Source: Cytophagales bacterium (GTDB lineage Bacteria > Bacteroidota > Bacteroidia > Cytophagales > Spirosomataceae). From it: 59,199 nt of DNA. Position numbers and translations under genes: made by a program. Location: assembly GCA_013298125.1 (NCBI GenBank), contig JAAFJP010000035.1, positions 1 through 59,199 on the forward strand, given 5' to 3'. Position 1 is the stretch's first letter; the number at the start of each line of letters is the position of its first letter. The notes beneath the pieces were generated by a model that saw nothing but the letters and a program-made list of their open reading frames with translations, was not told the origin of the DNA and ran no database searches. This document shows, piece after piece, positions 12,398-58,187 of the stretch.

Positions 12398-12439
12398 CGT
12401 GATAAATATATCTTTATCGAAAATACATAATGGGACTGT

Positions 12440-12496: not shown

Positions 12497-12514
12497 TTTT
12501 TCGTTTTGATGTTG

Positions 12515-12544
12515 CAAACTTAGTATTTAAAATTTAAAAACAAA
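12515..12544 (-). promoter_or_regulatory. Promoter of the trp leader transcript
   Basis: On the minus strand the -7 element TAAGTTTG (12515-12522) matches the Bacteroidota consensus TAnnTTTG exactly. A TTTG -33 element (12541-12544) lies 18 bp upstream. It sits just past the purB stop and would start RNA near 12508, a few bases before the leader ATG. Confidence 0.75.
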
Positions 12545-41946: not shown

Positions 41947-43365
41947 TTACTTCGGTATTTCAATTTTAATCGTTGTTCCTTTGCCTATTTTTGATTGAAT
42001 TTTGTAAGAACCATTCAACAATTCCGCACGGGCTTGCATGTTTTTCAAACCACTTCCTCTCAACGATTTTTGAACAGTTTTTAGGTCAAATCCTTCTCCT
42101 TTATCTATGATTGACAATGATACAAACGTTTCATTATCAGATAGTTGTATTTTCACAGAAGGTGATTTTGAATATTTTACGGCATTATGCAAAGCCTCTT
42201 GCGTGATTCTGTAAAGGCAAGTTTCTATGGCTTCGTGCAAGCGTGGGATATTCTGAGACTGAAAATCAATCTTAATATCCGTAACCTTAGATACTTGTTC
42301 CGTCAAAATTCTAATAGCTGGGACAACCCCAAAATCACTCAAAACCGAAGGGGCAAGGTTAAATGAAACGGTACGAGTTGCTTCAATAGTTTCTTGAATT
42401 AAATTTTGTAATTCTTCAAACGATTTTGCTTGTTTTGTGTTTGTAAAATCAAAACTTTTGACCTTTTCGCTGTGCAACCGCAAGCCCGTAAGCATCTGTC
42501 CGATGCCATCGTGGAGGTCGGCGGCTAAACGTTTTCGTTCTCCTTCTTGCCCTTCCATCAACGATGCTGCCCGTATTTTTTCTTCGGCTAATTGAAGTTT
42601 GTATTTCTCTTCCGTTGCCTGAACTAATGCCTCTTGGGTTTTTACTAATTCATCATTGGTTTTACGAAGATTACTTTCTGAATCAGTCAACCGCTTAATC
42701 ACAAAACGAATATTATTGGCAATGGGTCGGAAGATAAATGCACCTTCCAAAATCAAAATACTGAACAAAAGAATGAACAAAAATAGCTCTATCTTTTTGG
42801 TAGTATCAACTCGTTCTCTGGACTCTAAATCGTACTGAAAAACGATTTTATTCATCATTTGCAAAAATGCTCTCTCGTTTGTAAGTATTTGATTTCGAGC
42901 ATTATGTAGAACTTCCTGTTGATTTTGAACGGGTTTATTAATAGTTGATTCTATTGTTTTTGCATTCAATAAAATTACTTGAAAAATAGGGTCAATTTGT
43001 CGAAACATACTGTCTATTTTTTCACTATTTCTGACCGTATAATTTCGTCCGTCGGTCTTCAAATTTTTGTTCTTCAAACCTTCGTGACTGGATTCCCAAA
43101 GTGTAATGATTTCTTTAATATCTTGGGAATAATGTTCGGCATCGGCTTGGAAAACCTGTGGCAAACATAGCAAAACGGCGGTCTTTGAAAGTCGCTGACT
43201 TAGCATCCTTTGTCGCCCTGCAATGTTCACCACATGGGAGTCGTCCAGTAGAGAATTTAGGAATACTTGAATCAATATCTGCCCAACCAAAGACAACAAC
43301 GCCACCGCCAAAAGAGCCATGACGTAGAGCCGTGTTAGTCGTTTAAATATTTGATTATCAAGCAT
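41947..43365 (-). CDS. NarX-like nitrate sensor histidine kinase
   Basis: 472 residues from MLDNQIFKRLTRLYV; the ATG at 43497 would overlap nasA's 3' end and is rejected. A transmembrane segment is followed by a PilJ-type four-helix sensor with VNIAGRQRMLSQRLSKTAVLL, related to the P-box helix of NarX. A second transmembrane segment near 250 and a coiled coil follow. The HisKA_3 domain has ERKRLAADLHDGIGQMLTGLRLHSEKV, then AVKYSKSPSVKI and GSGLKNMQARAELL. It is 33 bp after nasA. Confidence 0.88.
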   Translation of the reverse strand: MLDNQIFKRLTRLYVMALLAVALLSLVGQILIQVFLNSLLDDSHVVNIAGRQRMLSQRLSKTAVLLCLPQVFQADAEHYSQDIKEIITLWESSHEGLKNKNLKTDGRNYTVRNSEKIDSMFRQIDPIFQVILLNAKTIESTINKPVQNQQEVLHNARNQILTNERAFLQMMNKIVFQYDLESRERVDTTKKIELFLFILLFSILILEGAFIFRPIANNIRFVIKRLTDSESNLRKTNDELVKTQEALVQATEEKYKLQLAEEKIRAASLMEGQEGERKRLAADLHDGIGQMLTGLRLHSEKVKSFDFTNTKQAKSFEELQNLIQETIEATRTVSFNLAPSVLSDFGVVPAIRILTEQVSKVTDIKIDFQSQNIPRLHEAIETCLYRITQEALHNAVKYSKSPSVKIQLSDNETFVSLSIIDKGEGFDLKTVQKSLRGSGLKNMQARAELLNGSYKIQSKIGKGTTIKIEIPK

Positions 43366-43397
43366 ATCGTTTTTATTTTCGTAAAAATAAAAGAAAT

Positions 43398-46300
43398 TTA
43401 AGCCTCTACCAATTCGCCTTTCAACACACTCTCCAAAATCGCCCGAATTTCTGGGCGGCAACTTCCGCAACCTGTCCCTGCACCCGTCTGCGTACATAAG
43501 GCTGTAAAATCTTTACAACCCGCTGATATACAAGACTTTAAATTGCCTTCGCCTACGTTATTGCATGAACAAACCAACTTGCCCATTACAGGGTCGGCTT
43601 TCTTTCCACTTCTGAGAAGTTCCAATCTTTTGTCGGATAATTCTATGCCGTTGGCGATTAAATCTTTGAATTCTAAGAACTCAGATTTGTCACCAATCAA
43701 AATTGCACCAACCAATTTATCGTTGTGGATAATACATTTTTTGTAATACCTTTTTGCTTTGTCAATAAACGTAATCTCCTCATAATCAGACGATTTAGGC
43801 GTTTCTATTATGCCCATTGAGCATAATTGTACACCTTGAATTTTCATGATATTTACTGACAATGAGCCTTTGTAATAACTCGCCCAATCGCCTGCAATGT
43901 ATTTCGCAATGGTGTCTGCTTGTTGTTCGGCGGCGGCGGTGATGCCCCACATTTCGCCTCGCCATTGAGCAATTTCTCCTGCCGCAAAAATGTCTGGGTC
44001 GGAGGTTTGGAGATAGTCATTCACCACCACACCACGATTCACTTCCAATCCACAAGCACGGGCAATTTCTACATTTGGGGATGTTCCGATGGCAAAAACA
44101 GCAATTTGAGCCTCAATTTTTCTCCCAGATTTTAATCTTACACCTTCAAATTTTTCTGTTCCGTAAAAGGCGGCAACTTCATCATTATAATAGATATCAA
44201 CACCTAAATTAATCATTTCTTCGTGCAGCAAATCAGAGCCGAGTTGGTCTAACTGTCTATCCATAAAACGACTAATCCGTTGAACGATAGTTACTTGCAC
44301 ATTTATTTCACGCAAGGAAGCCGCTAATTCCAACCCTAATAAACCACCACCAACGATTAGAGCTTTTGGGTTTTCGGTATTAAGGAATGGCATCAGACTA
44401 TCGGCATCCAAACGAGAACGCATATTGAAAATCCCAGGGATTCGTGGCACAGACGGAGGCATAAACGCTCGTGAACCCATGCCCAAAATCAGGCGGTCAT
44501 AAGTATGTTCATCTCCATTGGAATCTATGACGACTTTATTTTTTCTATCAATATTTACAATCTCTAAACCTTTGTGAACCAGAATATTAGCTTCCGTAAA
44601 TTGGTCTTCACGGAGTTTAACTAATTGCTCCCATTCCTGAGTCCCAGAGATATAATCAGGCAACATCACACGGTTATAGAACGGATAAATTTCCTTTGAA
44701 AACACATGGATTTCGTCCGTTTTATTGAGATTTCTATACGAATTGATAAAGCCCAATCCCGCAGAACCTGCCCCGATGATAATTATTTTTTCTACGGGTT
44801 TCTCATACGCCTTAATTTGAACGGCTGAAAACTTAAAATCAGGTTCTTTCGAGCGTGCATCCACGAGCGTATTCGTGAGACTATTTGTTCTACCAAAAGC
44901 ACTCCCCAAGATTTTTCCGAAGTGCATCGGCATAAAACAAACGCCCTGTTTGATGTCTTCGGTGATTTTAGCTTTTACTTGATTTTTACCTCTAATCGTT
45001 TCAATTTCAACTACTTGATCATCTTTTATTCCTCTTGCTGACGCATCTTTTGGATGAATTTCGATGTAAGGTTGAGCGATGTGTTGATTTAATTTATTGA
45101 CTTTCCCTGTCTTGGTCATAGTATGCCATTGGTCACGGATGCGTCCTGTTGTGAGGATTAGAGGGAAATCTTCATTGAGTTTTTCAGATAGATTTTCATC
45201 AGGAACAGCGTGGATTTTGGCACGTTGGTTTGGGGTATAGAATTTATGGTCGGAGAATAGGCGAGAAGTCGAAACAACAACCTCACCCGAAGCGTCGGTC
45301 GCCCCAGTCCCTCTCCTGCTGAGAGGGGAGTTATTCGTCCGCAAAACTCCCCTCTCAGTAGGAGAGGGGTCGGGGCGACCGTCGCTTCGGGTGAGGTTGT
45401 TGCCCCACTGATGGCTCCGATTTTCCTTCAAATACTCATAACTCACCCCCGAAATATCAATATTCGTCCCCTTCGTTGAAAGTACGTGTTCGTCATATAT
45501 TTCACTGTTAGTCAAGTAGTTAAATGATTCTCCGAAGCCCATTTTTTCGGCAAAACGTTTAATGATTTCTGTATCATCTAAGGCTTCGCCTGGGGCATCA
45601 ATTACTTTTGGGAGGAAGGTAATTCTTCTTTCTGAATTGGTAAAAACGGAATCTTTTTCTGCCCAAGCTGCCGCAGGAAGAACTACATCGGCATATTTTA
45701 CCGTGTCTGAACGATTTGAAATATCTTGCACCACTACAAATTTGGCATTTTGTAAACCTTTTTCCACCATATTCAAATCGGGCAAACTCACCATTGGATT
45801 TGTCGTAACAATCCAAATTGCCTTCATGCGTCCGTCCGCAAGGGCTTGGAACATTTCGGTTGCCGTGAAACCAGGTTTATCCGAAATTTTTGTGCCGCCC
45901 CAAAATGCTTGCACTTCCTCACGGTGGGCAGGATTCAATAAATCTCGGTGGGCAGGTAACATATTTGCCAAACCGCCAACTTCACGTCCCCCCATGGCAT
46001 TGGGTTGTCCCGTGAGCGAAAAAGGTCCATTGCCTTCTTTGCCAATTCTGCCCGTAATCAAGTGTAAATCAATGAGTGAGAGGTTTTTATTGACACCCAC
46101 AACCGACTGATTCAAGCCCATTGTCCACATCGACAAAAAGCCTTTTGATTCGTGAATATATTTTGCCGCTAATTGAATATCATTGGCTGAAATTCCACAA
46201 ATTTTAGCGGCTTCCGTGAGTGTTCTGGTAAAAACTTGCTCACGGTAAGCCTCGAAACCGTCGGTGTGATTCGTGATAAAATCTTGGTCAATCCAATTGT

Positions 46301-47024
46301 TTTCGATGAGAATTCTACCGATGATATTAGTTAGAACGATGTCTGTTCCTGGGTTTATTTGAAGGTGTAAATCTGCCTGAGATGCCGTTTGGGTACGTCT
46401 GGGGTCGATTACGATAATTTTTACATGGGGATTTGCCGCTTTGTGAGCCTCCACTCTTCGCCAAATGATGGGGTGACACCATGCAGGATTTGCTCCCGTT
46501 ACGAAGAAACAATCGGCTAATTCAATGTCGTCATAACACACAGGAACAGAATCTTCGCCAAGCGTGAGTTTGTATCCTACCACCGCAGACGACATACACA
46601 AGCGAGAGTTGGTATCAATATTATTTGAGCCAATAAAACCTTTAATGAGCTTGTTGATGATGTAATATTCTTCGGTAGAACATTGTCCAGAAACATAAAA
46701 ACCGACAGAATCGGGACCATATTTTTGGATAAAAGTTTTGAAAATGGCGGCAGTACGGTCAAGGGCAGCATCCCAAGAAACTCGTTGCAAAGGCATATTA
46801 CGATTGAATCGCATTTCGGGGTAAAGCAATCTATCGGATTTGTCATTGACGGTGTAATGCAAATTCATTCCCTTTGAGCATAACATACCCTTGCTTGAAG
46901 GATGGTCTTTATCCCCTTCCACATGAATCTTCCCATTGCCCAAATCCGTGATTTCGACCCCGCATCCAACGCCACAATACGAACACGTGGACTTAAACTT
47001 CTTATCGTATGGTAAGTTGCTCAT
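43398..47024 (-). CDS. nasA: Fused assimilatory nitrate reductase (MopB + FAD/NAD reductase + BFD)
   Basis: 1208 residues. Residues 14-49 bind a [4Fe-4S] (CSYCGVGC...C49). The molybdopterin domain continues to about 740, with the Mo-ligand Cys in NSRLCMSSAV. A NirB/NasB-like pyridine nucleotide-disulfide oxidoreductase follows (GAGSAGLGF, GGGLLGLELA, FAAGEIAQW). A BFD-like [2Fe-2S] closes the protein (CSCNNV...GTGCGSCRPE). It can thus take electrons from NAD(P)H and reduce nitrate to nitrite in one polypeptide, a form I know from Bacteroidota. Residues about 541-583 are encoded by a GC-rich palindrome and fall between SHQWG and STSRLFSDHKFYTP, a loop in homologues. Confidence 0.93.
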   Translation of the reverse strand: MSNLPYDKKFKSTCSYCGVGCGVEITDLGNGKIHVEGDKDHPSSKGMLCSKGMNLHYTVNDKSDRLLYPEMRFNRNMPLQRVSWDAALDRTAAIFKTFIQKYGPDSVGFYVSGQCSTEEYYIINKLIKGFIGSNNIDTNSRLCMSSAVVGYKLTLGEDSVPVCYDDIELADCFFVTGANPAWCHPIIWRRVEAHKAANPHVKIIVIDPRRTQTASQADLHLQINPGTDIVLTNIIGRILIENNWIDQDFITNHTDGFEAYREQVFTRTLTEAAKICGISANDIQLAAKYIHESKGFLSMWTMGLNQSVVGVNKNLSLIDLHLITGRIGKEGNGPFSLTGQPNAMGGREVGGLANMLPAHRDLLNPAHREEVQAFWGGTKISDKPGFTATEMFQALADGRMKAIWIVTTNPMVSLPDLNMVEKGLQNAKFVVVQDISNRSDTVKYADVVLPAAAWAEKDSVFTNSERRITFLPKVIDAPGEALDDTEIIKRFAEKMGFGESFNYLTNSEIYDEHVLSTKGTNIDISGVSYEYLKENRSHQWGNNLTRSDGRPDPSPTERGVLRTNNSPLSRRGTGATDASGEVVVSTSRLFSDHKFYTPNQRAKIHAVPDENLSEKLNEDFPLILTTGRIRDQWHTMTKTGKVNKLNQHIAQPYIEIHPKDASARGIKDDQVVEIETIRGKNQVKAKITEDIKQGVCFMPMHFGKILGSAFGRTNSLTNTLVDARSKEPDFKFSAVQIKAYEKPVEKIIIIGAGSAGLGFINSYRNLNKTDEIHVFSKEIYPFYNRVMLPDYISGTQEWEQLVKLREDQFTEANILVHKGLEIVNIDRKNKVVIDSNGDEHTYDRLILGMGSRAFMPPSVPRIPGIFNMRSRLDADSLMPFLNTENPKALIVGGGLLGLELAASLREINVQVTIVQRISRFMDRQLDQLGSDLLHEEMINLGVDIYYNDEVAAFYGTEKFEGVRLKSGRKIEAQIAVFAIGTSPNVEIARACGLEVNRGVVVNDYLQTSDPDIFAAGEIAQWRGEMWGITAAAEQQADTIAKYIAGDWASYYKGSLSVNIMKIQGVQLCSMGIIETPKSSDYEEITFIDKAKRYYKKCIIHNDKLVGAILIGDKSEFLEFKDLIANGIELSDKRLELLRSGKKADPVMGKLVCSCNNVGEGNLKSCISAGCKDFTALCTQTGAGTGCGSCRPEIRAILESVLKGELVEA
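45276..45402. repeat. 127-bp palindromic element inserted in frame in nasA
   Basis: Arms of about 57 bp (45276-45333 and 45346-45402) are near-perfect complements: CAACAACCTCACCCGAAGCG outward and AACTCCCCTCTCAG inward. The centre is about 12 bp. Base composition is much richer in G+C than the surrounding gene. The reading frame crosses it without a stop. Confidence 0.92.
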
Positions 47025-47136
47025 TTTCAGATAATTAATTAACAGAAATTTGTGACTTTATGATTTTTGTCTCGTTATTTATAGGTAACCACTTTAATAT
47101 CGGAGATTGGGATGGTTATACATTGTCCCATTTTTG

Positions 47137-47163
47137 CCCGCAATGCACCGCCAAGCATTCGGG
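47137..47163. repeat. Hexaloop hairpin P in the nasA 5' leader
   Basis: Plus strand CCCG-C-AATGC-A-CCGCCA-A-GCATT-CGGG: nine base pairs with one bulge and an A-A mismatch. Minus strand (nasA sense) loop is TTGGCGGT. It lies about 115 bases before the nasA start. Confidence 0.7.
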
Positions 47164-47327
47164 TATTTTTGTTTTAAGTATTTTTACTCATTTTTTGTAG
47201 AAATACTGATATTTGCAAGGTTTACGATAAACATAAATTTTCAACGTACATATATTATTTTACTATATACGTTGGTGTGCTATACAATACTAAAATAAAA
47301 TTTTTCTAATTTTTTCTTGCACTTTTC

Positions 47328-47358
47328 TTGCAAAGTCGAATATTATCTTTTATGTTTG
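47328..47358 (+). promoter_or_regulatory. Promoter of the candidate small RNA
   Basis: TATGTTTG (47351-47358) is an exact TAnnTTTG -7 element, with TTG (47328-47330) 20 bp upstream. It points away from nasA, toward the three hairpins and terminator. Confidence 0.6.
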
Positions 47359-47363
47359 TTAAA

Positions 47364-47543
47364 GAAAAAGATGTTCAAACGAACAAAACAACATTCGTAT
47401 CCAAAATACCGCCATATCTTTGGAACACTCTGGGAGACCGCCATTTCCCAGAACGGTACTTAACCATACCAGTTTAATACCTAACCATTACCGCCATTTT
47501 GTTAGGTGCAAAACCCGAAGACTTTAAGACTTCGGGTTTTTTG
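47364..47543 (+). ncRNA. Candidate small RNA with three CCGCCA-loop hairpins
   Basis: Between a promoter-like sequence (47328-47358) and a strong plus-strand terminator lie three hairpins with the same loop CCGCCA. They are 47401-47423 (CCAAA-ATA / TAT-C-TTTGG), 47429-47452 (TCTGGGAGA / TTTCCCAGA, with a G-U pair that only the plus strand can form) and 47480-47506 (CCTAAC / GTTAGG with an internal loop). No open reading frame of note. The region fills the 611-bp gap 47025-47635 together with hairpin P. The opposite reading, as a long nasA leader on the minus strand, cannot be excluded. Confidence 0.6.
47512..47543 (+). terminator. Terminator of the candidate small RNA
   Basis: AACCCGAAG / CTTCGGGTT around an ~8-nt loop, followed by TTTTTTG on the plus strand. 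In the other direction the T-run is only TTTT, so it would serve the nrtD transcript less well. Confidence 0.8.
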
Positions 47544-47635
47544 TTTTGCAACCACAAAAGGCACAAAAGGAAACAAAAGGTTTTTCAATCTTTTATAATT
47601 CCTAAAACCTAACGCCCAACCCCTAACACCTTTTT

Positions 47636-48493
47636 TTAATCTTCGATCGAAAATTTATCAAATAACAAATTCAACAACTCATCGTGTACACGTACATACT
47701 CAGGGTCGTGGGCGATGTCTTTTTTGTTTCTTGGTCTTGGTAAATTGATGTCCACAATTTTCTTGATGGTGGCTTCGGGTCCGTTGTTCATTACCACTAC
47801 TCTGTCCGATAAGAAAATGGCTTCTTCAATATCGTGCGTTACCATGACGATGGTTTTGTTGCGATTGTCCAAATTCCACAACTTCAATAATTCGATGTGC
47901 ATTGAGCCTTTTGTGAGGGCATCTAACGCTCCGAAGGGTTCGTCCAACAACAAAATACTTGGGTTGATGGCGAAGGCACGAGCAATGGCAACTCGCTGTT
48001 TCATTCCTCCCGATAATTGTCCTGGCAATTTGTCTTTGTGTTGAATCAGATTGACCATTTTCAGATTCTCCTCTACTAATTCATGCTTTTCGATAGAAGT
48101 TTTTTCTTTGAAAACAGAATCAACGGCTTCGTAAATGTTCTTGTAAACCGTCAACCAAGGCAATAGAGAGTAATTTTGGAAAACAATCCCTCTGTCTGGT
48201 CCGGGACCTTTTACGATGTTTCCGTTGGCAATTACTTCTCCTTGCGAAGGCGTAACCATGCCCGAAATGGTGTTCATCAAAGTAGATTTTCCGCAACCTG
48301 AGTGACCAATTAGGGCTACGATTTCGCCTTTTTTGATGGTAAGATTAATGTCTTTGATGGCAGTAAAAGTTCCTTTTGAACCTTTGAACGAAACGGTAAT
48401 GTCTTTAATGCTTACTGCCGTTTCTGTACTGTTTATTTTATGAAAGTCACTCGCTGAATCAACGAATTTGACTGAGTTTTCTAATGTTGTCAT
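47636..48493 (-). CDS. nrtD: Nitrate ABC transporter ATP-binding protein
   Basis: 285 residues. Walker A LIGHSGCGKST, signature LSGGMKQRVAIARAF, Walker B ILLLDEPFGALD and H-loop VTHDIEEAI. It lacks the C-terminal NrtA-like regulatory domain of NrtC, so it is the NrtD/SsuB/TauB type. With the permease and binding protein upstream it forms a nitrate uptake system. Confidence 0.9.
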   Translation of the reverse strand: MTTLENSVKFVDSASDFHKINSTETAVSIKDITVSFKGSKGTFTAIKDINLTIKKGEIVALIGHSGCGKSTLMNTISGMVTPSQGEVIANGNIVKGPGPDRGIVFQNYSLLPWLTVYKNIYEAVDSVFKEKTSIEKHELVEENLKMVNLIQHKDKLPGQLSGGMKQRVAIARAFAINPSILLLDEPFGALDALTKGSMHIELLKLWNLDNRNKTIVMVTHDIEEAIFLSDRVVVMNNGPEATIKKIVDINLPRPRNKKDIAHDPEYVRVHDELLNLLFDKFSIED

Positions 48494-48504
48494 GTTCTTT
48501 TTAG

Positions 48505-48592
48505 GTTTTAGGGGTTGGGTTTTAGGGGTTGGGTTTTAGGGGTTAGGTAGCTTCTGAAATCTATAACCTAACACCCAAAACCTAACACCTTT
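48505..48592. repeat. Imperfect inverted repeat between nrtB and nrtD
   Basis: TTTTAGGGGTTGGG repeated direct copies on the left mirror ACCTAACACCCAAAACCTAACACC on the right; TTAGGGGT heptamer-like units. Confidence 0.5.
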
Positions 48593-48593
48593 T

Positions 48594-49367
48594 TTAAGCC
48601 TTTTCCCAAGAAAATAAATTTTGTAAAGCATTAAATCCTTTGTCTAATAATAATCCTACGCCTCCGATGATGAGGATGGCTACGAGGATTTTTTCTAAGG
48701 ATAAACCATTCCAGCTATCCCACACAAAGAATCCGATTCCTACACCGCCCGAGAGCATTTCGCCCGCTACAATTACTACCCAAGCAATACCGATTGAAAG
48801 GCGTAAACCTGTGAAAATATGCGGTAGAGAGTACGGAATGACGATTTTTGTCAAATATTTCCAAGTCGAAAATCCGAATGCTTTTCCTACGTTTTTATGG
48901 TCTTGGGGAATGCTTGATACTCCAAAAGCGGTATTAATTACCGTGGGCCACAATGACGTAATGGCAATGATAAAAATGGTTGCTCCGCCCGAATCTTTGA
49001 AAGCCAAAAGCCCCAAAGGAAACCAAGCCAAAGGCGAAACGGGCTTTAAAATCTGTACAATTGGGTTCAATAAACTCATTCCAATTTTGGTAGAACCCAT
49101 CAACATTCCCATCGGAATTGCGATGATACTGCCCAAGGCAAAACCTGTGAAAACTCTTCCGATTGAACTGAAAAGGTTATTGCCGATTCCTTTGTCGTTT
49201 GGACCTCGGTCATAAAATGGTTCAGCCATTAATTCTTTAAAAACTGCCCATGTTGAAACTGGGCTTGGTATTTCGGCTTTGGTGATAATAGAAATCAATT
49301 GCCAAATTCCGATAAGTATTGCCATGCTTCCGAGGAAATATGCGATGTTTGAGAATGTCTTTTTCAT
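48594..49367 (-). CDS. nrtB: Nitrate ABC transporter permease
   Basis: 257 residues from MKKTFSNIAYFLGSM; the ATG at 49409 lies in a heptamer-type repeat. Six transmembrane spans. NrtB/SsuC features are AIPSPVSTWAVFKEL near the N-terminus, PVSPLAWFPLGLLAF, and the EAA-like loop VGKAFGFSTWKYLTKIVIPYSLPHIFTGLRL. Operon nrtA-nrtB-nrtD. Confidence 0.9.
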   Translation of the reverse strand: MKKTFSNIAYFLGSMAILIGIWQLISIITKAEIPSPVSTWAVFKELMAEPFYDRGPNDKGIGNNLFSSIGRVFTGFALGSIIAIPMGMLMGSTKIGMSLLNPIVQILKPVSPLAWFPLGLLAFKDSGGATIFIIAITSLWPTVINTAFGVSSIPQDHKNVGKAFGFSTWKYLTKIVIPYSLPHIFTGLRLSIGIAWVVIVAGEMLSGGVGIGFFVWDSWNGLSLEKILVAILIIGGVGLLLDKGFNALQNLFSWEKA

Positions 49368-49372
49368 GATTT

Positions 49373-49470
49373 TGGTGGCTTTCGGCTTTCGGCTATCAGC
49401 TTTCGGCAAGATTGTTCTTCCTCTTATTGGAGAAATTTAGCCGATAGCTGACTGCCGAAAGCCGACCGCT
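49373..49470. repeat. Inverted repeat between nrtA and nrtB
   Basis: GGCTTTCGGCTTTCGGCTATCAGC and GCCGATAGCTGACTGCCGAAAGCC; similar TTTTGGCTATC units occur at 3419-3460 and 17804-17826. Confidence 0.55.
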
Positions 49471-49473
49471 CTT

Positions 49474-50682
49474 TTATTTTTTCGTTGCCTTCAAATAATC
49501 ATCAATGTTTGCTGGGTCAAAATTGACATCATAAGTAGTTTTAAAAGGCTTCATGTCTGCCTGCACAGGCACTTGCATTTCTTTGGCTACTTCCGCAAAC
49601 AAATCATCCAAAATCAATTTCTCAGTAATGGCTTTGTAGTTTGGTTCAGATTTTAGCATTCCAAAACGAACATATTGAGCTAAAAACCACATCGCATGAA
49701 CTTTACGAGGTGTATTCACGATTCCATTATTATAAAAAGTCATGTAATCGTCTTTGTATTTTTGTACACCCAAATCACACCCTAAATCATTTGAACCTAA
49801 TAAACGAGACTCAATGGCAGCCAAAGGAGCATTTACGTAATAGGGTTTTGTGAGCCAGCCAGCGGCTTTTTTACGATTTCCCATATTGTCCAACCACTTG
49901 CAGGCTTCGATAATTGCCTTCATTACATTCTTCAAATCTTCTTTGTCTTTTGAAGCAAATTCAGAATTTACGACCAAGGCTTTTTCTGGGTGGTGTTTCC
50001 AAATATCTTGTGAAGCAATGTGGGTAAAACCAACGTTCTGAGCCGCCGCAACACCATTCCAAGGTTCACCTACGCAATAGCCTTCCATGTTATCAACACG
50101 CATATTCGCAACCATTTGTGGCGGTGGAATGGTGATAATACCAACTGATTTTTGATTAATTCCTGATGCTGCCATCCAGTTTCTCAACCAAATATCGTGC
50201 GTTCCACCTGGGAAAGTCATTGCAAAAGTTACTTCTTTACGAGCCTGAACATTTTTCACAGCTGCCGCTACTTTTCCTACTTCTTTAAAACCAACCAATC
50301 CGCAGAAGTCTTTTGAAAGCGTGATTCCTTGACCGTTGTTATTTAAAACCATCGCAATTTTCATTTCTGAGCCTGCCTTTCCACCTATGCCTGTATAAAC
50401 CGAAAGTGGCATTGAGAATAGACAGTGAGCCCCGTCCAATTCTCCATTCAATACTTTATCTCTAATATTTGCCCAAGATGATTCTTTTGAAAGTTCAACG
50501 TCCACACCATATTTGGTAAAAAGTCCTAATTCTTTGGCTGCGACCAATGGAGCACAATCCGTTAGTGGAATAAATCCTAATTTAATTTTCCTGGCTGGCG
50601 GTGTAATCTTGAAAGAAGATACAACCGTCAGAAGCACCATAAGGCACAAAAATGATACTGATTTTTTTAACAGAGTTTGCAT
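49474..50682 (-). CDS. nrtA: Nitrate ABC transporter substrate-binding protein
   Basis: 402 residues with an N-terminal signal/anchor (LCLMVLLTVVSSF). NrtA/CmpA features are KIKLGFIPLTDCAPLVAAKELGLFTKYGVDVELSKESSWANIRDKV, GAHCLFSMPLSV, VTFAMTFPGGTHDIWLRNWM and GYCVGEPWN. It delivers nitrate (perhaps nitrite) in the periplasm to the NrtB permease. A CCCCCA-loop hairpin lies just upstream at 50719-50734. Confidence 0.92.
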   Translation of the reverse strand: MQTLLKKSVSFLCLMVLLTVVSSFKITPPARKIKLGFIPLTDCAPLVAAKELGLFTKYGVDVELSKESSWANIRDKVLNGELDGAHCLFSMPLSVYTGIGGKAGSEMKIAMVLNNNGQGITLSKDFCGLVGFKEVGKVAAAVKNVQARKEVTFAMTFPGGTHDIWLRNWMAASGINQKSVGIITIPPPQMVANMRVDNMEGYCVGEPWNGVAAAQNVGFTHIASQDIWKHHPEKALVVNSEFASKDKEDLKNVMKAIIEACKWLDNMGNRKKAAGWLTKPYYVNAPLAAIESRLLGSNDLGCDLGVQKYKDDYMTFYNNGIVNTPRKVHAMWFLAQYVRFGMLKSEPNYKAITEKLILDDLFAEVAKEMQVPVQADMKPFKTTYDVNFDPANIDDYLKATKK

Positions 50683-50718
50683 AATTTTTTGGTTAAAATG
50701 TTAATAAATTGCTACAAC

Positions 50719-50734
50719 TACGACCCCCATCGTA
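50719..50734. repeat. Hexaloop hairpin upstream of nrtA
   Basis: TACGA-CCCCCA-TCGTA on the plus strand (TACGA-TGGGGG-TCGTA in nrtA sense), 37 bases before the start codon. The hexaloop matches those before the porin and narK. Confidence 0.65.
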
Positions 50735-50740
50735 TAAGGT

Positions 50741-50809
50741 AGTACGGGATTTATCCCGTGAATAAAGTTTAGTTGTGCTGACGCAAGTTCACGGGATAAA
50801 TCCCGTGCT
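50741..50809. repeat. Inverted pair of CACGGGATAAATCCCGTG palindromes
   Basis: Two 16-18-bp palindromes in inverse arrangement between the porin stop and nrtA. Generic repeat element, possibly a terminator for the porin transcript. Confidence 0.65.
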
Positions 50810-50813
50810 ACAT

Positions 50814-52436
50814 TTACTTAATCGCCACTGGTTTTGTATAGAAAAAGTCTGGACGAATATTAATCATGGCATAAAACCATGTACCTGTTTTGTTGAAAGT
50901 AGCCGCCGCTGCATCGGTAGTTGCTTGCCCTTTGGCAAATGCCATATTGTCGTTTGCCATCATGACTGAGTAGCCTAATTCAATATTGGTAAACTTATTA
51001 AGGTTATAACTCAATTGTAAATCTATTTCGTTACCAAGAGAACCATCGCCTAATAACGTTCCATCGCCTTTGGTGGTGATTTTATTTAAGCTAAAAGCAT
51101 GATAATCAGCCCCTAACGACAAACGACTATCAGTATATTTTACCTTGAAGTATGGATTGTTCAAACCTCCTGCGGGCGAGTTTGTGCCTACGTAGAAGTA
51201 ATCCATATATCCCCAGTGTTTGTGAGGTGTACCGTACAATGGGTCAAAGCGATTATTTTTACCTGTTGAAGTAGCTCTGTAATTACCCAATGCACTACTT
51301 CCATCATTGCCCGAAAGTGCCTCATAACCAGCCGTGAAAGCCAATTTACCTTTCTGATAGGTGGCAGATGCCATGTAATGATAGGCATCCATATCATTTC
51401 CTTCACGGTCTTTGCCTGTTTGCAAATAATATGCACCTTGCAAGGAAACTTTACCCCATCCCGAAGCATTACCGAGGGTATGATTTATCATCAAACCGTA
51501 AGTCAAACGTCCTCTTGATTGGTCATAATCGAAGGCATCCGTAGCACTTGCTGGTACGAAACGACGACCATAGACATAGCCCGTAGAGGCACTGCCCGCT
51601 GAGTCGAGGCGATATGCTCCGAAATTATCGGCAAATAATAACCCCGAAAATTTAGTCTGATTGAATTTACGACTGATATATAAACTGGTGAATGACTTGT
51701 AATCCTGACTTGCTCCGTTGGTTGAAGGAGGATTCATCCAAGCCAAACCGCCTGTTTTTGAGCTGTTGTTGTTTATGTTACCACTGGCGGTCAATGGAAT
51801 CATGCCTGAGGGTGTGGGTACTAATGTCCCAGTGTTTGTACGTGTGTAGGCAGCTACGTTGGCGGGTACATACGACGTACCAACAAGGTTGAAAGCATCA
51901 GAATTTTGTCCGAAGGCATAGCCCAAATCCACTTGCCAACCGTGATGAACCGCTTTCAAAAGCACCATATCGTGGCGACGAGCTTGTTGTAACCAGTCTA
52001 AGTTTCCGATTAAACGAACGTCATCGTAAATCAATTCTTGACGACCCAATTTTACGGTCAATAAATCTAAACCTCTAAATTTTACCGTGGTATCGGCTTT
52101 GTTGGCGAGTGTAACTTCTGCCCAACCTTCGTGCAACATCAATCTATTACCATCATTAGTTGAGATAGACGAAGCGTCTTGTCCCCAAACTCTAACATCT
52201 TGAACAGCTGCCCCGAAAAGAACCCTATCCCATTTATAACCAAAATTTAATCTTGTTCTTTGCGACGTAAAAGCCGCTGTTTTTGAATCATTCGGGACTA
52301 AGTTTCCGAGTCCGTTTCTGATTTCTGTTCGAGTTCTCACTTGCCCTTGCAATGTGAACTGAGCCTTTGTTGTGAAATGAGTAGAAATACTCAAAAATAA
52401 AACTGTGGCAAGTTTAAAAATGTGAAATTTTTTCAT
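50814..52436 (-). CDS. Alginate-export-type outer membrane porin
   Basis: 540 residues with a signal peptide ending TKAQ. Family traits are QGQVRTRTEIRNGLG, SQRTRLNFGYKWDRVLFGAAVQDVRVWGQD, KLGRQELIYDDVRLIGNLDWLQQARRHD and repeated amphipathic strands, as in the alginate_export (PF13372-type) beta-barrels. Such porins are common in nitrate/nitrite clusters of Bacteroidota and are thought to let anions pass the outer membrane. Located between narK and nrtA on the same strand. Confidence 0.85.
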   Translation of the reverse strand: MKKFHIFKLATVLFLSISTHFTTKAQFTLQGQVRTRTEIRNGLGNLVPNDSKTAAFTSQRTRLNFGYKWDRVLFGAAVQDVRVWGQDASSISTNDGNRLMLHEGWAEVTLANKADTTVKFRGLDLLTVKLGRQELIYDDVRLIGNLDWLQQARRHDMVLLKAVHHGWQVDLGYAFGQNSDAFNLVGTSYVPANVAAYTRTNTGTLVPTPSGMIPLTASGNINNNSSKTGGLAWMNPPSTNGASQDYKSFTSLYISRKFNQTKFSGLLFADNFGAYRLDSAGSASTGYVYGRRFVPASATDAFDYDQSRGRLTYGLMINHTLGNASGWGKVSLQGAYYLQTGKDREGNDMDAYHYMASATYQKGKLAFTAGYEALSGNDGSSALGNYRATSTGKNNRFDPLYGTPHKHWGYMDYFYVGTNSPAGGLNNPYFKVKYTDSRLSLGADYHAFSLNKITTKGDGTLLGDGSLGNEIDLQLSYNLNKFTNIELGYSVMMANDNMAFAKGQATTDAAAATFNKTGTWFYAMINIRPDFFYTKPVAIK

Positions 52437-52485
52437 ACTTTTGTAATTGATTGTGAAAATTTATAACAGAGTTTGATCAATTCAT

Positions 52486-52521
52486 GCCTGAACGAGACCC
52501 CCATCACGTTCGGGCTTTTTT
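52486..52521 (+). terminator. Hexaloop hairpin upstream of the porin, terminator-like on the plus strand
   Basis: GCCTGAACG-A-GA-CCCCCA-TC-A-CGTTCGGGC then TTTTTTG. The G-U pair at T52489/G52512 forms only on the plus strand. In porin sense the loop is TGGGGG, 62 bases before the ATG. A plus-strand -7 element TACTTTTG at 52436-52443 could start a ~70-nt RNA ending here. Confidence 0.6.
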
Positions 52522-52551
52522 GTGTGTGTTAGTGGTGATTTTTTTGTTTTT

Positions 52552-52753
52552 AATTAATTTTCAATGTCCAATTTCCAATGTAAAATGTTCAAGTGTTTGA
52601 CTCAGATTAACATTATGAACTTGATTGGAACTTCCCGAAAGTAGAAAAAACTTTCGGGAAGTAAATTCGGTGTTTTATACTTCTCGAAAGTTCCTTACCC
52701 GCAGTGGAGCTGTTTCGAGAAGTTCTTTCAGAGAATTGAACATTGAAAATTAA
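52552..52753. repeat. Nested repeat in the narK-porin gap, with double-hairpin copy 2
   Basis: Outer arms TTTTCAATGTCCAATTTCC and TTGAACATTGAAAATTAATT; inside lies copy 2 of the double-hairpin element (52629-52740), with ACTTCCCGAAAGT / ACTTTCGGGAAGT intact and the second hairpin altered by a short insertion. The outer arms resemble 58207-58297. The rest of the 52437-52768 gap holds the hexaloop hairpin. Confidence 0.7.
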
Positions 52754-52768
52754 TTATTAAAACTTTCA

Positions 52769-54064
52769 TTAAGCTACCTCCAATGCTCCCTTCGTCTCAA
52801 CCAAAACCTTCTTATCAAACTTAATCAAAGCTGTCAATGCTCCAACTGCCGCTACCGCCAAGCCAATGTAAAGGAAGGCTTGTGCGTAAGAAATCGTTTC
52901 AGATTTGAAAAGAAAACCAGCCAAAACGCCCCCTAAATTTCCTCCTGCACCCACGATTCCAGCAACTGAGCCTACGTTTTTAGTATCTACGAAAGGTACG
53001 ATGGCGTACGTTGCACCGTTTGCCATTTTCAAGAACATGGCAAAACCTAACATTGCAACCACTGCCATTGTCAATGAACCTGTTTGGGCAAAAAGAGCGA
53101 TTCCAATGCCTTCCATGATTAAGAAAGCTGCCAATAACCAGCCTTTGCCTCTCATGCCGTAAGAATTACCAATTTTATCCGCCACAATTCCACCAATGGC
53201 ACGAGCAAAGAGATTCATGAATCCAAAAAGTCCCGCTAAAAGTCCAGCCGTTTTGAGGTCGCAAGAGAAGTTTTCAGAGAAATACAATGCCGCTACGTTG
53301 TCAAAAGTGATTTCAATTCCGAAACACGCCCCGTACGCCAAAAACAAAATCCAAGTACGATAATCTGATGCTGCCGAAAGGAAAGAGCCTTTTGCTTGTG
53401 GTGTATTACTTCTATCTATTTCTGAATAATTACCTTCTGGCGTATCTTTTGTGAATTTATAATAAACAAAAGCCATGACCAACAACATTGCCCCAGGAAT
53501 AATCATGGCATAACGCCAAGCCTCTGGTTTTGAGTAACCTAAGCCTACAAAAGCTGCCAAAACCAAAGGCATCAACATATTGGTGATACCTCCGCCAAGG
53601 TTTCCCCAACCGCCTGCAACGGCGTTTGCTGTGCCTTTGATTTTGGGAGCGAACATGGCGGATGTGTGATATTGTGTGATGACGAAAGATGCTCCAATTA
53701 CGCCAATGGCTAATCTGAACAATAAAAAACTCTCGTAACTGTGTGCTAATCCAATAGTCATTACTGGAATTGAACCAATGACTAAAAGTCCTGTGTAAGC
53801 TAATCTTGGTCCAATAGTATCGCAAAGACGACCAATTACTAAACGAGCAAAAATCGTTGCCGAAACTGAGGCGATGATAATATTTCCAATTTGTCCTTTC
53901 GTTAATCCTAAATCATCTTTTACAATTTTCATTAAAGGTGCAATCCCGAACCATCCAAAGAAACAGAAGAAAAAGGTAATCCAAGTAATGTGGAAAGTCT
54001 GCATTTGAATGCCTTTCCAAGAGAAAATTTTAAGCGAATCTAAGGGTTTGTTTAACGTATTCAT
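52769..54064 (-). CDS. narK: Nitrate/nitrite MFS transporter
   Basis: 431 residues, 12 transmembrane spans. The nitrate signatures of the NNP family are VAGGWGNLGGGITNML and GIVGAGGNLGGVLAGF. Also seen are the first-loop DDLGLTKGQIGN and RLCDTIGPR. It imports nitrate or exchanges nitrate and nitrite at the inner membrane, in parallel with the ABC transporter. First gene of a block cobA-narK-porin-nrt on the minus strand. Confidence 0.93.
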   Translation of the reverse strand: MNTLNKPLDSLKIFSWKGIQMQTFHITWITFFFCFFGWFGIAPLMKIVKDDLGLTKGQIGNIIIASVSATIFARLVIGRLCDTIGPRLAYTGLLVIGSIPVMTIGLAHSYESFLLFRLAIGVIGASFVITQYHTSAMFAPKIKGTANAVAGGWGNLGGGITNMLMPLVLAAFVGLGYSKPEAWRYAMIIPGAMLLVMAFVYYKFTKDTPEGNYSEIDRSNTPQAKGSFLSAASDYRTWILFLAYGACFGIEITFDNVAALYFSENFSCDLKTAGLLAGLFGFMNLFARAIGGIVADKIGNSYGMRGKGWLLAAFLIMEGIGIALFAQTGSLTMAVVAMLGFAMFLKMANGATYAIVPFVDTKNVGSVAGIVGAGGNLGGVLAGFLFKSETISYAQAFLYIGLAVAAVGALTALIKFDKKVLVETKGALEVA

Positions 54065-54096
54065 GATTGTTTTTGATTGCTAAATATCTGATTTTC

Positions 54097-54113
54097 AAAT
54101 ATTTAGTATTAAT
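54097..54113. promoter_or_regulatory. Shared AT-rich palindrome upstream of narK
   Basis: AAATATTTAGTATTAAT, differing by one base from the sequence at 54995-55011 before cobA. The related palindrome form is AATACTTAGTATT. Candidate co-regulation site or promoter element. Confidence 0.35.
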
Positions 54114-54119
54114 ATATCT

Positions 54120-54135
54120 TCTCGCCCCCACGAGA
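54120..54135. repeat. Hexaloop hairpin upstream of narK
   Basis: TCTCG-CCCCCA-CGAGA on the plus strand (TGGGGG loop in narK sense), 56 bases before the start codon. A second, unrelated hairpin TTCAACTTGCGTTGAA lies at about 54143-54158. Confidence 0.65.
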
Positions 54136-54190
54136 GACATTTTTCAACTTGCGTTGAAGGGAAAACTTTTTAGTTCTGGGTACTGAGTTC

Positions 54191-54958
54191 TTAGTTAAGT
54201 TGCATTTGGTCTTTCAACTCAGAACTCAGAACTCCAAACTCAGAACTTAAAGAAACCACCTCCCCAATTACAATAACCGCTGGGTTGGTTATATTTTCTG
54301 AAACTGATTTTTCTATAATTGTTGAAACTGTACCTACTACCGATTTCACGTTTTTGCGAGTACCGTTTTGAATAATTGCCATCGGCATTTCTGATTTTTC
54401 GTTTGATTTAAATATCTCACAAATCTCAGCTAACTTGCTCATTCCCATCAAGATAACTATCGTGGCGGATGACTGAGCGGCTAATTCGATATCTTTTGAA
54501 ATTTCACCTTTCTTGGTTGTGCCAGTGATTACCCAAAAACTTTCTGCAAAACCTCTACTCGTTACGGGTATGCCTACGGAGGCGGGTGCGGCGATGGCAG
54601 ATGTCACGCCAGAGACTACTTCGCATTCAATATTAAAATTCTTGGCGTATTCTATTTCTTCAAAACCTCTTCCGAATACGAATGGGTCGCCACCTTTTAG
54701 TCTTACCACGTGTCCGTATTCCAGAGCTAAATAGACAATTTTTTGATTTATTTCTTCTTGGGTGTAAACATATTTACCAAGACGCTTTCCAACATATATT
54801 CTTAAAGCATCAGGATGAGCATATTCCAAAAGCTCTTGATTGGCGAGTGCATCATATAAAATCACATCCGCAGACTTGATGGCTCTGATTCCTTTTAAGG
54901 TTATCAGTTCAATATCTCCTGGACCAGCACCAATTAAAGTTAATCTTGGAATATTCAT
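54191..54958 (-). CDS. cobA: Uroporphyrinogen-III C-methyltransferase
   Basis: 255 residues. SUMT signatures: LIGAGPGDIELITLKGIRAIKSADVILYDAL, VRLKGGDPFVFGRGFEE, and VVSGVTSAIAAPASVGIPVTSRG. It makes precorrin-2 from uroporphyrinogen III and SAM for siroheme, the NirB cofactor. The dehydrogenase/chelatase step (CysG N-terminal domain) is not fused and not nearby. Divergent from nirB across a 595-bp spacer. Confidence 0.94.
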   Translation of the reverse strand: MNIPRLTLIGAGPGDIELITLKGIRAIKSADVILYDALANQELLEYAHPDALRIYVGKRLGKYVYTQEEINQKIVYLALEYGHVVRLKGGDPFVFGRGFEEIEYAKNFNIECEVVSGVTSAIAAPASVGIPVTSRGFAESFWVITGTTKKGEISKDIELAAQSSATIVILMGMSKLAEICEIFKSNEKSEMPMAIIQNGTRKNVKSVVGTVSTIIEKSVSENITNPAVIVIGEVVSLSSEFGVLSSELKDQMQLN

Positions 54959-54994: not shown

Positions 54995-55011
54995 AAATAC
55001 TTAGTATTAAT
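54995..55011. promoter_or_regulatory. Shared AT-rich palindrome upstream of cobA
   Basis: AAATACTTAGTATTAAT; the core AATACT-T-AGTATT is a perfect palindrome. Matches 54097-54113 at 16 of 17 positions. Confidence 0.35.
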
Positions 55012-55553: not shown

Positions 55554-58187
55554 ATGAAAAAAATCGTCGTCGTGGGGAACGGAATGGTTGGTTACAAGTT
55601 TTGCGAAAAACTTGTCAATAAAGACGTTTCCAAGCAATGTGAAATTATCGTATTTGGTGAGGAAATACGTCCCGCCTACGACCGTGTGCATCTTTCAGAA
55701 TATTTTGCAGGAAAAACTGCCGAAGATTTAACGATGGCACCTGCCGAATGGTACGCTGAAAATGGAATACGTCTTATTCTATCCGACCCAGTGGTCGATA
55801 TTGACCGTGAGGCAAAAACCGTTCGCTCGCATCATGGTTTAGTCGAGAGCTATGATTATTTGGTAATGGCTACGGGTTCGGGGGCTTTTGTGCCGCCCAT
55901 TCCTGGGGTTGAGAAAGATGGGGTTTTTGTGTATCGTACCATCGAAGATTTAGATTTGATGCAATCGCACGCACGCAAGGCTACCAAAGGTGCGGTGATT
56001 GGCGGAGGATTATTAGGTCTGGAAGCTGCCAAGGCACTTTTAGACTTAGGTTTGAAAGAAGTTCACGTAGTAGAATTTGCTCCAAGATTGATGCCGAGAC
56101 AAATTGATGAGGCAGGTTCGAGAGTGCTTCAAGCTAAATTAGAAACGCTTGGTTTACAGATACATTTGAATAAAAATACCCAAGAGATTATTGGTAATGG
56201 CGTAATTGAGGCAATGCAATTTGCGGATGGCTCTCGTTTGGATGTAGATATGCTCGTGATTTCGGCAGGCATCAAACCCCGTGACGAAGTGGCGAAAGTG
56301 GCAGGTTTGGAAGTGGGTACTCGTGGCGGAATTATAGTAAATGATGCCTTGCAAACTTCTGATCCGAACATTTTTGCGATTGGCGAATGTGCTTTGGCTC
56401 ATCAGATGATTTACGGTTTGGTTGCCCCAGGGTATGAAATGGCGGAGGTTGTGGCGAAACAAATAGCCCCCCCTGCCCCCAGAGGGGGAGCTTTCCAGTC
56501 CGAAATAGCCCCCCAACCCCCAGAGGGGGAGTTTGAGACTTCGACTTTCGACTCAAAATTGGAGTCTAATTCTGCGTCAAAAGCTCCCCCTCTGGGGGCG
56601 GGGGGGGCTTCTTTCCTCCCTTTTGATATGTCCACCAAACTAAAACTTATCGGTGTGGATGTAGCCAGTTTTGGAGATGCGTTTATCCAAGAGCCTAATG
56701 CTCAGACGATTGTGTTTGAAAATTCGGCAAAAGGGATTTATAAAAGAATCAATATTTCAAACGATGGTAAGTATCTATTAGGCGGAATTTTGGTAGGAGA
56801 TGCCGAGCAATACAATATGCTTTTGCAAAATACCAAGAACAAAACTTTGCTCCCACCCGACCCAGAAGATTTAATGTTGGGTTCTCGTGGAGGGGCAGAA
56901 AGTGGAGCTTCGGGTGTGATGGCATTGCCAGATGAAGCCCTGATTTGCTCTTGCGAAGCCGTTACAAAAGGAGCAATTTGTCATGAAATCGTTGAGAATA
57001 AGGTAATTACACTTGATGGTATCAAAAAATGTACAAAGGCAGGAACAGGTTGCGGCGGTTGTGTGCCAATGGTGAAGGATTTAATCAATGAAACCATGAA
57101 GTCGCAGGGTGTTTTTGTGAGAAATGTTATCTGCGAACACTTCAATTATACCCGTCAGGAATTATTTGATTTAGTAAAAATTAAAGGTTTCAGAACTTAT
57201 GACGAAGTATTGGATAACCTCGGACACGGAGACGGTTGCGAGTTATGTAAACCGCCCGTAGCGTCTATCTTAGCAAGTTTGTGGAACGAAATGATTTTGG
57301 AAAAAGGCAACGCCACAGTCCAAGATTCCAATGACCGTTTCTTAGCAAATATTCAAAAAAATGGTACTTATTCAGTCGTTCCAAGGATTCCAGGGGGAGA
57401 AATCACGCCCGAAAAATTGATTGTGATTGGACAAGTAGCTTTAAAATATAACCTCTACACTAAAATCACGGGTGGGCAACGAATAGATTTGTTCGGAGCC
57501 CATGTTGGTGATTTACCTGATATTTGGGAACAATTAGTAAACGCTGGTTTCGAGTCGGGTCATGCTTACGGAAAATCTTTGAGAACCGTAAAATCTTGCG
57601 TAGGCTCAACGTGGTGTAGATTTGGGGTGCAAGATGCGGTGAGTTTTGCCATCGAAGTTGAAGAGCGTTATCGTGGTTTGCGTTCGCCTCATAAATTGAA
57701 ATCGGCGGTTTCGGGTTGTACTCGTGAGTGTGCGGAGGCTCAATCAAAAGACTTTGGAATCATCGCCACTGAAAAAGGTTGGAACTTGTATGTATGTGGC
57801 AACGGAGGCGTGAAACCTCGCCACGCTGAATTATTGGCAACGGATATAGATTCTGTAACTTGCTTGAAATACATTGACCGTTTCTTGATGTTTTATATCA
57901 AAACGGCAGAACCATTGACTCGTACCGCACCGTGGTTAGATAAAATGGAAGGCGGTATTAATTATTTGAAATCAGTAGTAGTTGATGATGTTTTGGGCAT
58001 GGGTGAAACTTGGGATGCTGAAATGCAACTATTGGTAGAAGCCTACAAATGCGAATGGAAAGAAGTAGTAGATAATCCAGAATTACGCAAAAGATTTACA
58101 CACTTCGTAAATGCTCCAAAAGTCAAAGACCCAAATGTGAAATTTGAGCCGATGAGAGAGATGGTGAAGGCGGGAGAGTGGAAGTAG
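55554..58187 (+). CDS. nirB: Nitrite reductase large subunit
   Basis: 877 residues. FAD/NAD oxidoreductase at 1-300 (VVVGNGMVGYKF, GGGLLGLEAAKAL, FAIGECALA). A BFD-type [2Fe-2S] near 465-510 (CSCEAV...GTGCGGC), a second C-x2-C (GCELCKPP), a ferredoxin-like domain (TGGQRIDLFGAHVGDL) and the siroheme/[4Fe-4S] domain with SCVGSTWCRFG and SGCTRECAEAQ. It reduces nitrite to ammonium with NAD(P)H. Residues about 304-352 (PPAPRGGAFQSEI... to ...PPLGAGGASF) are encoded by a GC-rich palindrome and are absent from typical NirB, in which the reductase domain runs directly into DMSTKLKLIGVDVASFGD. Confidence 0.95.
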   Translation: MKKIVVVGNGMVGYKFCEKLVNKDVSKQCEIIVFGEEIRPAYDRVHLSEYFAGKTAEDLTMAPAEWYAENGIRLILSDPVVDIDREAKTVRSHHGLVESYDYLVMATGSGAFVPPIPGVEKDGVFVYRTIEDLDLMQSHARKATKGAVIGGGLLGLEAAKALLDLGLKEVHVVEFAPRLMPRQIDEAGSRVLQAKLETLGLQIHLNKNTQEIIGNGVIEAMQFADGSRLDVDMLVISAGIKPRDEVAKVAGLEVGTRGGIIVNDALQTSDPNIFAIGECALAHQMIYGLVAPGYEMAEVVAKQIAPPAPRGGAFQSEIAPQPPEGEFETSTFDSKLESNSASKAPPLGAGGASFLPFDMSTKLKLIGVDVASFGDAFIQEPNAQTIVFENSAKGIYKRINISNDGKYLLGGILVGDAEQYNMLLQNTKNKTLLPPDPEDLMLGSRGGAESGASGVMALPDEALICSCEAVTKGAICHEIVENKVITLDGIKKCTKAGTGCGGCVPMVKDLINETMKSQGVFVRNVICEHFNYTRQELFDLVKIKGFRTYDEVLDNLGHGDGCELCKPPVASILASLWNEMILEKGNATVQDSNDRFLANIQKNGTYSVVPRIPGGEITPEKLIVIGQVALKYNLYTKITGGQRIDLFGAHVGDLPDIWEQLVNAGFESGHAYGKSLRTVKSCVGSTWCRFGVQDAVSFAIEVEERYRGLRSPHKLKSAVSGCTRECAEAQSKDFGIIATEKGWNLYVCGNGGVKPRHAELLATDIDSVTCLKYIDRFLMFYIKTAEPLTRTAPWLDKMEGGINYLKSVVVDDVLGMGETWDAEMQLLVEAYKCEWKEVVDNPELRKRFTHFVNAPKVKDPNVKFEPMREMVKAGEWK
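56465..56609. repeat. Palindromic element inserted in frame in nirB
   Basis: The 30-bp arms 56465-56494 and 56580-56609 are complements with one mismatch (runs of CCCCC / GGGGG around TCTGGGGG-type cores). A further copy of the unit (ATAGCCCCCCAACCCCCAGA) lies at 56506. The insertion preserves the frame. Confidence 0.9.

Follow-up and report, generated by a model that had tools for sequence, protein, structure and literature searches.

The 59,199-nucleotide (nt) contig JAAFJP010000035.1 of a Cytophagales bacterium, analysed here over its whole length (the window), carries a cluster of nitrate genes whose leaders contain small hairpins sharing the loop TGGSGG. Within a 5.85-Mb genome (G000), the window makes up contig C29; all coordinates of window features are window positions, and the hairpins and the genes from narK to nasA listed next lie on the minus strand. 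In the direction of transcription, the cluster comprises a narK-like MFS transporter (52769 to 54064; Pfam MFS_1), an outer-membrane porin of the Alginate_exp family (50814 to 52436), an nrtA-like nitrate-binding protein (49474 to 50682) followed by nrtB-like (48594 to 49409) and nrtC-like (47636 to 48493) genes, and a nasA-like nitrate reductase (43398 to 47024). Apart from the porin, the gene names are inferred from Pfam domains. The names given in an initial annotation of this DNA are backed by Pfam: a molybdopterin reductase (nasA-like), an nrtABC-like ABC system, the Alginate_exp porin, an MFS transporter, a tetrapyrrole methylase and nirB.

The initial annotation placed seven loops in this region, and all seven are present at the positions given, reading TGGSGG on the minus strand, which is the coding strand of nasA, nrtA, the porin gene and narK. 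Three have the loop TGGGGG: the narK-leader hairpin (54116 to 54142; loop 54125 to 54130; folding z score −3.1), the porin-leader hairpin (52486 to 52515; loop 52498 to 52503; z −1.3), which is preceded by an A run, and the nrtA-leader hairpin (50712 to 50742; loop 50724 to 50729; z −1.6), located 61, 62 and 42 nt, respectively, before their start codons as measured from the loop. The remaining four carry TGGCGG. The nasA-leader hairpin (47137 to 47164; loop 47148 to 47153) lies about 124 nt before nasA, has a CCCG/CGGG outer stem and has similar counterparts in the leaders of the relative loci L032 and L033. Two tandem hairpins occupy the nrtC–nasA gap (47400 to 47424, loop 47409 to 47414, z −2.0; and 47429 to 47452, loop 47438 to 47443, z −2.7). 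The element at 47491 (47479 to 47507; z −1.7) lies, as judged by eye, directly 3′ of a terminator-like hairpin behind nrtC, and L032 has a similar one. The description of all seven as hairpins sharing a hexaloop holds for six, which have at least five of eight Watson–Crick pairs beside TGGSGG, but not for the 47491 element, in which TGGCGG sits within a 15-nt loop on a 7-base-pair (bp) outer stem.

These hairpins are real and conserved, and exceed chance expectation. In 2,000 dinucleotide shuffles of the four leaders, TGGSGG hairpins with at least five of eight Watson–Crick pairs numbered 0.02 on average and 2 at most, compared with the 6 observed, and the antisense strand of the four leaders gave none by the same count. 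When folded singly against 200 shuffles, the 54125 hairpin was beaten by 1 and the 47438 hairpin by 2, and the hairpins at 47409, 47491, 50724 and 52498 by 10 to 23. The 47148 hairpin is weak close to the loop: with the outer stem cut away, its z score is +0.58, and 142 of the 200 shuffles fold as well. The statement that no other intergenic copy occurs in the window except at 1867 to 1890 proved nearly right, but for a weak extra match at 20248 (E = 1.2). The 1876 hairpin (region 1862 to 2100) resembles a terminator on the minus strand, just 3′ of a 64-residue open reading frame, and is probably unrelated to the nitrate set.

Equivalent hairpins are found in relatives. Among 150 genomes of the family, NrtA was found in 33. 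We compared stretches around nrtA from 20 genomes at first, and later 26 loci together with the window, a set that includes one Cytophagales genome of unstated family (L180). The narK, porin and nrtA leaders of part of the 20 relatives carry equivalent hairpins with altered stem letters. In the larger set, hairpins occur in 24 of 26 porin leaders, in 15 of 21 narK leaders (one to three each) and in 11 of 23 nrtA leaders; among these calls, the porin matches in L048 and L049 are possibly chance, and the hairpins in L047 and L270 stand at the start of a reading frame. Two or three hairpins per leader are common at the porin gene and narK. At porin, nrtA and narK, the gene-nearest hairpin, whether single or one of a tandem, usually precedes the start codon by 40–70 nt; at nasA it lies farther away.

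The pattern of substitutions supports an RNA structure, as initially proposed, in which the loop is fixed and the stem drifts. Across 28 hairpins, all ten stem pairs vary on both sides, and 80% of cells pair, compared with 45% in shuffled and 37–46% in slid alignments; these hairpins were selected partly for pairing, which biases the figure upward. A second selection over the 26 loci and the window used the loop (search core TG[AG][CG]GG) and Watson–Crick pairs only, with at least five of eight pairs counted as paired. Flanks were paired at 73 of 97 leader sites, as against 12 of 194 sites outside ten cluster genes, some of which lie in other genes, and 20 of 415 within the ten, with repeat copies of one hairpin counted separately. 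Pairing is thus kept in orthologous leaders and the loop does not covary; in the window's family, it reads R-UGRSGG-Y, the variants being UGGSGG or UGAGGG. The pair closing the loop is A-T in 33 of the 73, G-C in 32 and another in 8. Since 65 of 73 closing pairs are A-T or G-C, the triplet RUG is common at the loop; a short open reading frame beginning there was considered and dropped as a general explanation, its length and frame differing between species as judged by eye.

Conservation of arm pairing and not of arm sequence also bears on whether the inverted repeats are sites for a DNA-binding protein, such as a NarL-like regulator. The cluster does encode a LuxR-type NarL-like response regulator (41188 to 41829) and a NarX-like, PilJ-type histidine kinase (41947 to 43497), both assigned by Pfam, which presumably form a DNA-level nitrate switch and have no known contact with the hairpins; Flavobacterium nitrate genes, moreover, are preceded by palindromes without this loop. 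The hairpin, however, also occurs in clusters whose fetched stretch has no narL or narX match (L043 and L172), and we regard a DNA site as highly improbable. Two palindrome-like stretches of the window that resemble each other, AATACTTAGTATTAAT in the gap between the cobA-like gene and nirB (54996 to 55011) and AATATTTAGTATTAAT in the narK leader (54098 to 54113), are perhaps sites of the NarL-like regulator.

The strand on which the structure acts can be read from the mismatches. Among 472 cells of 59 distinct leader hairpins, the non-Watson–Crick combinations comprise 31 G-T, 10 A-C and 67 others. Because a sense RNA tolerates G-T and not A-C, the excess of G-T favours the sense strand. A run of five A residues precedes 25 of 61 distinct hairpins, and 18 of 28 at the porin gene, so that the antisense strand there would read as a hairpin followed by a T run; such terminators, or antisense features of another kind, are nevertheless very unlikely to explain the set, given the G-T excess in the sense direction and the lack of an A run at any of the 11 distinct nrtA hairpins.

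The association with nitrate genes is also seen in searches of whole genomes. In 12 genomes, with at most 150 candidates scored in each, a covariance model built from the 28 hairpins placed 14 of its best 20 matches within nitrate clusters and returned no more than 11 matches per genome at E values up to 10, far from hundreds of copies unrelated to nitrogen genes. Over the 150 genomes of the family, under stricter filters, it gave 41 matches at E values up to 0.06 in 24 genomes, 28 of them in nitrate clusters as judged by position and neighbours. Nine of these 28 come from seven genomes that had supplied no training sequence, some of them close kin of training genomes. The model did not return the nasA hairpins of the window, two of which were in the training set, and therefore misses true members. 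In 40 stretches of G000 totalling 0.8 of its 5.85 Mb, nine hairpins with a TG[AG][CG]GG-type loop and at least seven of ten pairs were listed, and the sole one with eight pairs lies within a reading frame. G000 shows no enrichment of the core ATGGSGGT (316 copies, compared with 356 in a reversed control). A genome-wide or REP-like mobile palindrome was accordingly rejected, matches being few per genome and mostly in nitrate clusters.

Among the matches outside nitrate clusters, seven lie inside reading frames and six wholly or partly outside them. One in G005 follows a uvrA-like gene, where G036 also has one; one in G110 precedes a trpF-like gene, and G094 is similar; G053 and G078 each have one before a common gene, as does G037; and G066 (contig C34) and G065 (contig C98) have singletons. 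At the uvrA-like gene, two genera have a TGGCGG hairpin directly 3′ of the gene, with an MFS-like gene next (L114, 3011 to 3044; L115, 3078 to 3111), and at the trpF-like gene, a TGGGGG hairpin stands a few bases before the start in two species of one genus (L116, 2933 to 2966; L127, 3029 to 3062); these positions refer to the loci, and the gene names were assigned by eye, uvrA and trpF from the first residues.

The hairpins of the window and of its close relatives lie between co-directional genes separated by short gaps, as would plain messenger RNA processing or stabilising elements between the cistrons of a long operon, acting with no regulator. A stability hairpin, however, needs no fixed 6-nt loop, and at L175 the element precedes both porin and nirB, each of which has a divergent upstream neighbour; elements of this kind are therefore an unlikely account of the set.

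A second conserved element follows the hairpin in some leaders. The 11-mer AAACTCTGTTA lies after the porin hairpin (52464 to 52474) and within codons 2–5 of nrtA (50668 to 50678), both identified as sequence copies on the minus strand, and in genera g1, g2 and g10 it comes after the hairpin of the porin and nrtA leaders and, in part, of the narK leaders, in differing reading frames. This arrangement, together with loops that differ between families yet can be shared within a genome, would suit a small RNA that makes two contacts, a kissing interaction with the loop and base pairing with the second element close to the start codon. Loops UGGGGG and UGGCGG, however, coexist in one genome, and a single pairing RNA cannot match both well; and exact copies of AAACTCTGTTA elsewhere in nine genomes resemble genes or chance (by eye; 30 of 38 places). 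Recognition by base pairing, which the initial annotation had offered beside a protein, is weakened for one small RNA by this G/C swap, and we keep it as a rival of low probability. An antisense RNA against AAACTCTGTTA was rejected, its copies elsewhere looking like genes or chance. A pseudoknot between the loop and the second element was likewise dropped: by eye, it fits L180 and some Mucilaginibacter loci and fails in L172, L320 and L342.

TGGSGG as the defining feature stands for the window's family, but the element is wider: many porin leaders elsewhere in Bacteroidota have a hairpin at the equivalent place with a different loop. Named records carry CGGCAA (Adhaeribacter), GGTCGCAT (Mucilaginibacter) and GTCGCAT (one Chitinophagaceae genome), and the porin leaders of L176, L181 and L182 have the reverse-complement loop TTGCGAC or TGCGAC. 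Among 26 porin loci of the Mucilaginibacter family, GGTCGCA stands 59–65 nt ahead of the start codon in ten, while the loop is GTCGCAA in four and GGTCGAAG in two; a further seven carry a different loop containing GCA, GCG or the like, and in the last three no such element could be recognised. In the Adhaeribacter family, CGGCAA or CGGCCA stands at the hairpin place in 5 of 30 porin loci; the CGGCAA of L309 is, by eye, not in such a hairpin. In L318 and L319, CTTTAACA followed by a TAAA stretch flanks the porin hairpin on both sides.

Some of these genomes reuse their loop at a second gene. Adhaeribacter has GAG[CGGCAA]CTC, the loop in brackets, at both porin and nirB, and one close relative has CGGCAA at both. 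Among 30 nirB leaders, GGTCGCA was found in 6 of 25 from the Mucilaginibacter family, 53–57 nt before the start codon, and CGGCAA in 2 of 5 from the Adhaeribacter family. Five genomes (G151, G425, G319, G430 and G387) have GGUCGCA at both genes, or six with G152, counted through L178; the stems are weaker at nirB. The motif YGCTTTAACA lies near the start codon in many such porin and nirB leaders, and 15 GGTCGCA hairpins show covariation above shuffles. Each of three Mucilaginibacter genomes has a single copy of the sequence GGTCGCATTCC, at porin, and Niastella has two, elsewhere than porin; it was absent from two other genomes searched, and counts of GCGGCAAC were uninformative. Judged by eye only, the families may share a loop core BGCR, which UGGGGG, CGGCCA and GGUCGAAG do not fit.

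From these sequence patterns, we consider the hairpins to be, quite probably, RNA elements that act in cis in the leaders of a nitrate regulon; their loop would be read in trans, most likely by an RNA-binding protein, with the stem serving only to present it. The reading of a regulon is strengthened because one loop is reused at several genes and the loop changes between families, and weakened because many leaders lack a hairpin. The following observations weigh against it. In the window's family, hairpins occur in 4 of 22 nasA leaders and none of 17 nirB leaders, and 12 of 23 nrtA leaders have none. Three loci from genera g30, g5 and g23 (L048 to L050) carry the cluster yet show no more than one doubtful hairpin, and the leaders of eight Flavobacterium loci have no hairpin of such a kind. 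Thirteen of the 41 stricter model matches lie outside nitrate clusters. In the Adhaeribacter family, 25 of the 30 porin loci, a more distant set of porins, are without the loop. Reuse at nirB is the minority in both families (6 of 25 and 2 of 5), and the two Adhaeribacter-family cases are nearly identical there. Covariation in the GGTCGCA set is weaker, a one-column slide scores equally and pairing is poor in mid-stem. No trans-acting reader of the loop was found. As for the initial suggestion of a nitrogen RNA regulon read by a protein, for example of the RRM type, the association with nitrate genes agrees with it; the genome has one RRM_1 match, a candidate with no link to the loop.

As a leader element, the hairpin would expose its loop in the messenger RNA, with the stem only presenting it, and the trans-acting factor, presumably responding to nitrate or nitrogen state, would recognise the exposed loop. 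Control would follow the start of transcription, at translation or stability of the downstream cistron, which is likelier than intrinsic termination because almost no U run on the gene strand follows the hairpins: of 61 distinct hairpins, one has a T5 run in the 20 nt that follow it. Full promoter-like matches occur in six of the 66 leaders examined, all six being narK or porin leaders with a hairpin, and always lie upstream of the gene-nearest hairpin, a result that the longer upstream stretch favours; strict −7 promoter boxes number 11 upstream and 2 downstream of hairpins, as expected anyway from the lengths searched.

Nitrate control in Bacteroidota is seen as acting at the DNA level, and to our knowledge few RNA-binding regulators with known sites have been described in the phylum. 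More tentatively, several Bacteroidota families may have an RNA-based nitrate regulon in which the loop reader and the hairpins coevolved, each family having its own loop (UGGSGG, CGGCAA, GGUCGCA and others) in equivalent positions ahead of the porin gene and at additional nitrate genes. If so, such regulons would be a new class of post-transcriptional nitrogen control, and the change of loop between families, with its reuse in some genomes, would record RNA and reader changing together. The element is short enough to be synthesised and used as bait, its natural loop variants are built-in controls, and the search for the reader is directly testable.

Two further observations concern the window outside the hairpin set. 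The nirB frame carries some 40 extra residues (about 56465 to 56615, plus strand), inserted in frame as a series of C-rich repeat hairpins and without a counterpart in Mucilaginibacter NirB; the 15-mer CTCCCCCTCTGGGGG also occurs in four other fetched stretches of G000. A Bacteroid-trp leader (RF01692) is matched at 12386 to 12516 on the minus strand, just above the Rfam cut-off.

The initial annotation knew of no described motif of this form, and searches of open-licence literature turned up none; nor did the Rfam 15 covariance models, which gave no gathering-level match at the hairpins, two elsewhere in the window and only sub-threshold matches across 47020 to 54200. The closest comparison is with the targets of ANTAR-type regulators (NasR/nasF, EutV/eut and AmiR/amiE), which are alike in short stems, hexaloops, frequent tandem arrangement, several sites per locus, nitrogen genes and a closing pair that matters (PMC3369931, PMC8164766). 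The hairpins could thus be antitermination or attenuation sites that such a regulator binds as tandem hairpins; hexaloops, frequent tandem pairs, nitrate genes and several sites per cluster match the NasR and EutV targets (PMC3369931). The described rule, however, calls for an A as the first and a G as the fourth loop residue of both hexaloops (PMC3369931, PMC8164766), whereas here position 1 is U and position 4 is G or C. More than one hairpin occurs only in part of the leaders, many having a single one. Linkers are short in ANTAR targets, 5–12 nt in eut and 2–25 nt in Actinobacteria; here, tandem hairpins are mostly 35–43 nt apart from loop to loop, once 29 and in some cases 90 or more, the linker itself depending on where the stems end. 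The terminator that overlaps the second hairpin in Firmicutes and Proteobacteria has almost no equivalent here, in keeping with the scarcity of T5 runs. An ANTAR protein gave no match in G000, but neither did the control genomes, which makes that search uninformative. Overall, we give ANTAR-type sites little chance.

Other systems differ in their ligands or loops. RbpB, an RRM-1 protein of Bacteroides, is an RNA-binding regulator from this phylum that likewise acts post-transcriptionally, but it has mainly single-stranded ligands with the reported site 5′-GUAGGAUA-3′, which is unlike these hairpin loops (PMC11697453, PMC12119571); neither feature is found in the loops here. The cyanobacterial glnA and Downstream-peptide RNAs are likewise nitrogen-related leader RNAs, sometimes in tandem, but belong to another phylum and are proposed to be riboswitches (PMC2864571).

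In Csr/Rsm sites, a fixed motif in hairpin loops with free stems lies near start codons, and a GGA is needed in the loop. The hairpins described here share the fixed loop motif, the free stems and the position near start codons, but their loops UGGSGG, CGGCAA and GGUCGCA have no GGA. The element would act like a protein-read leader hairpin and, on the features compared, belongs to no known family.

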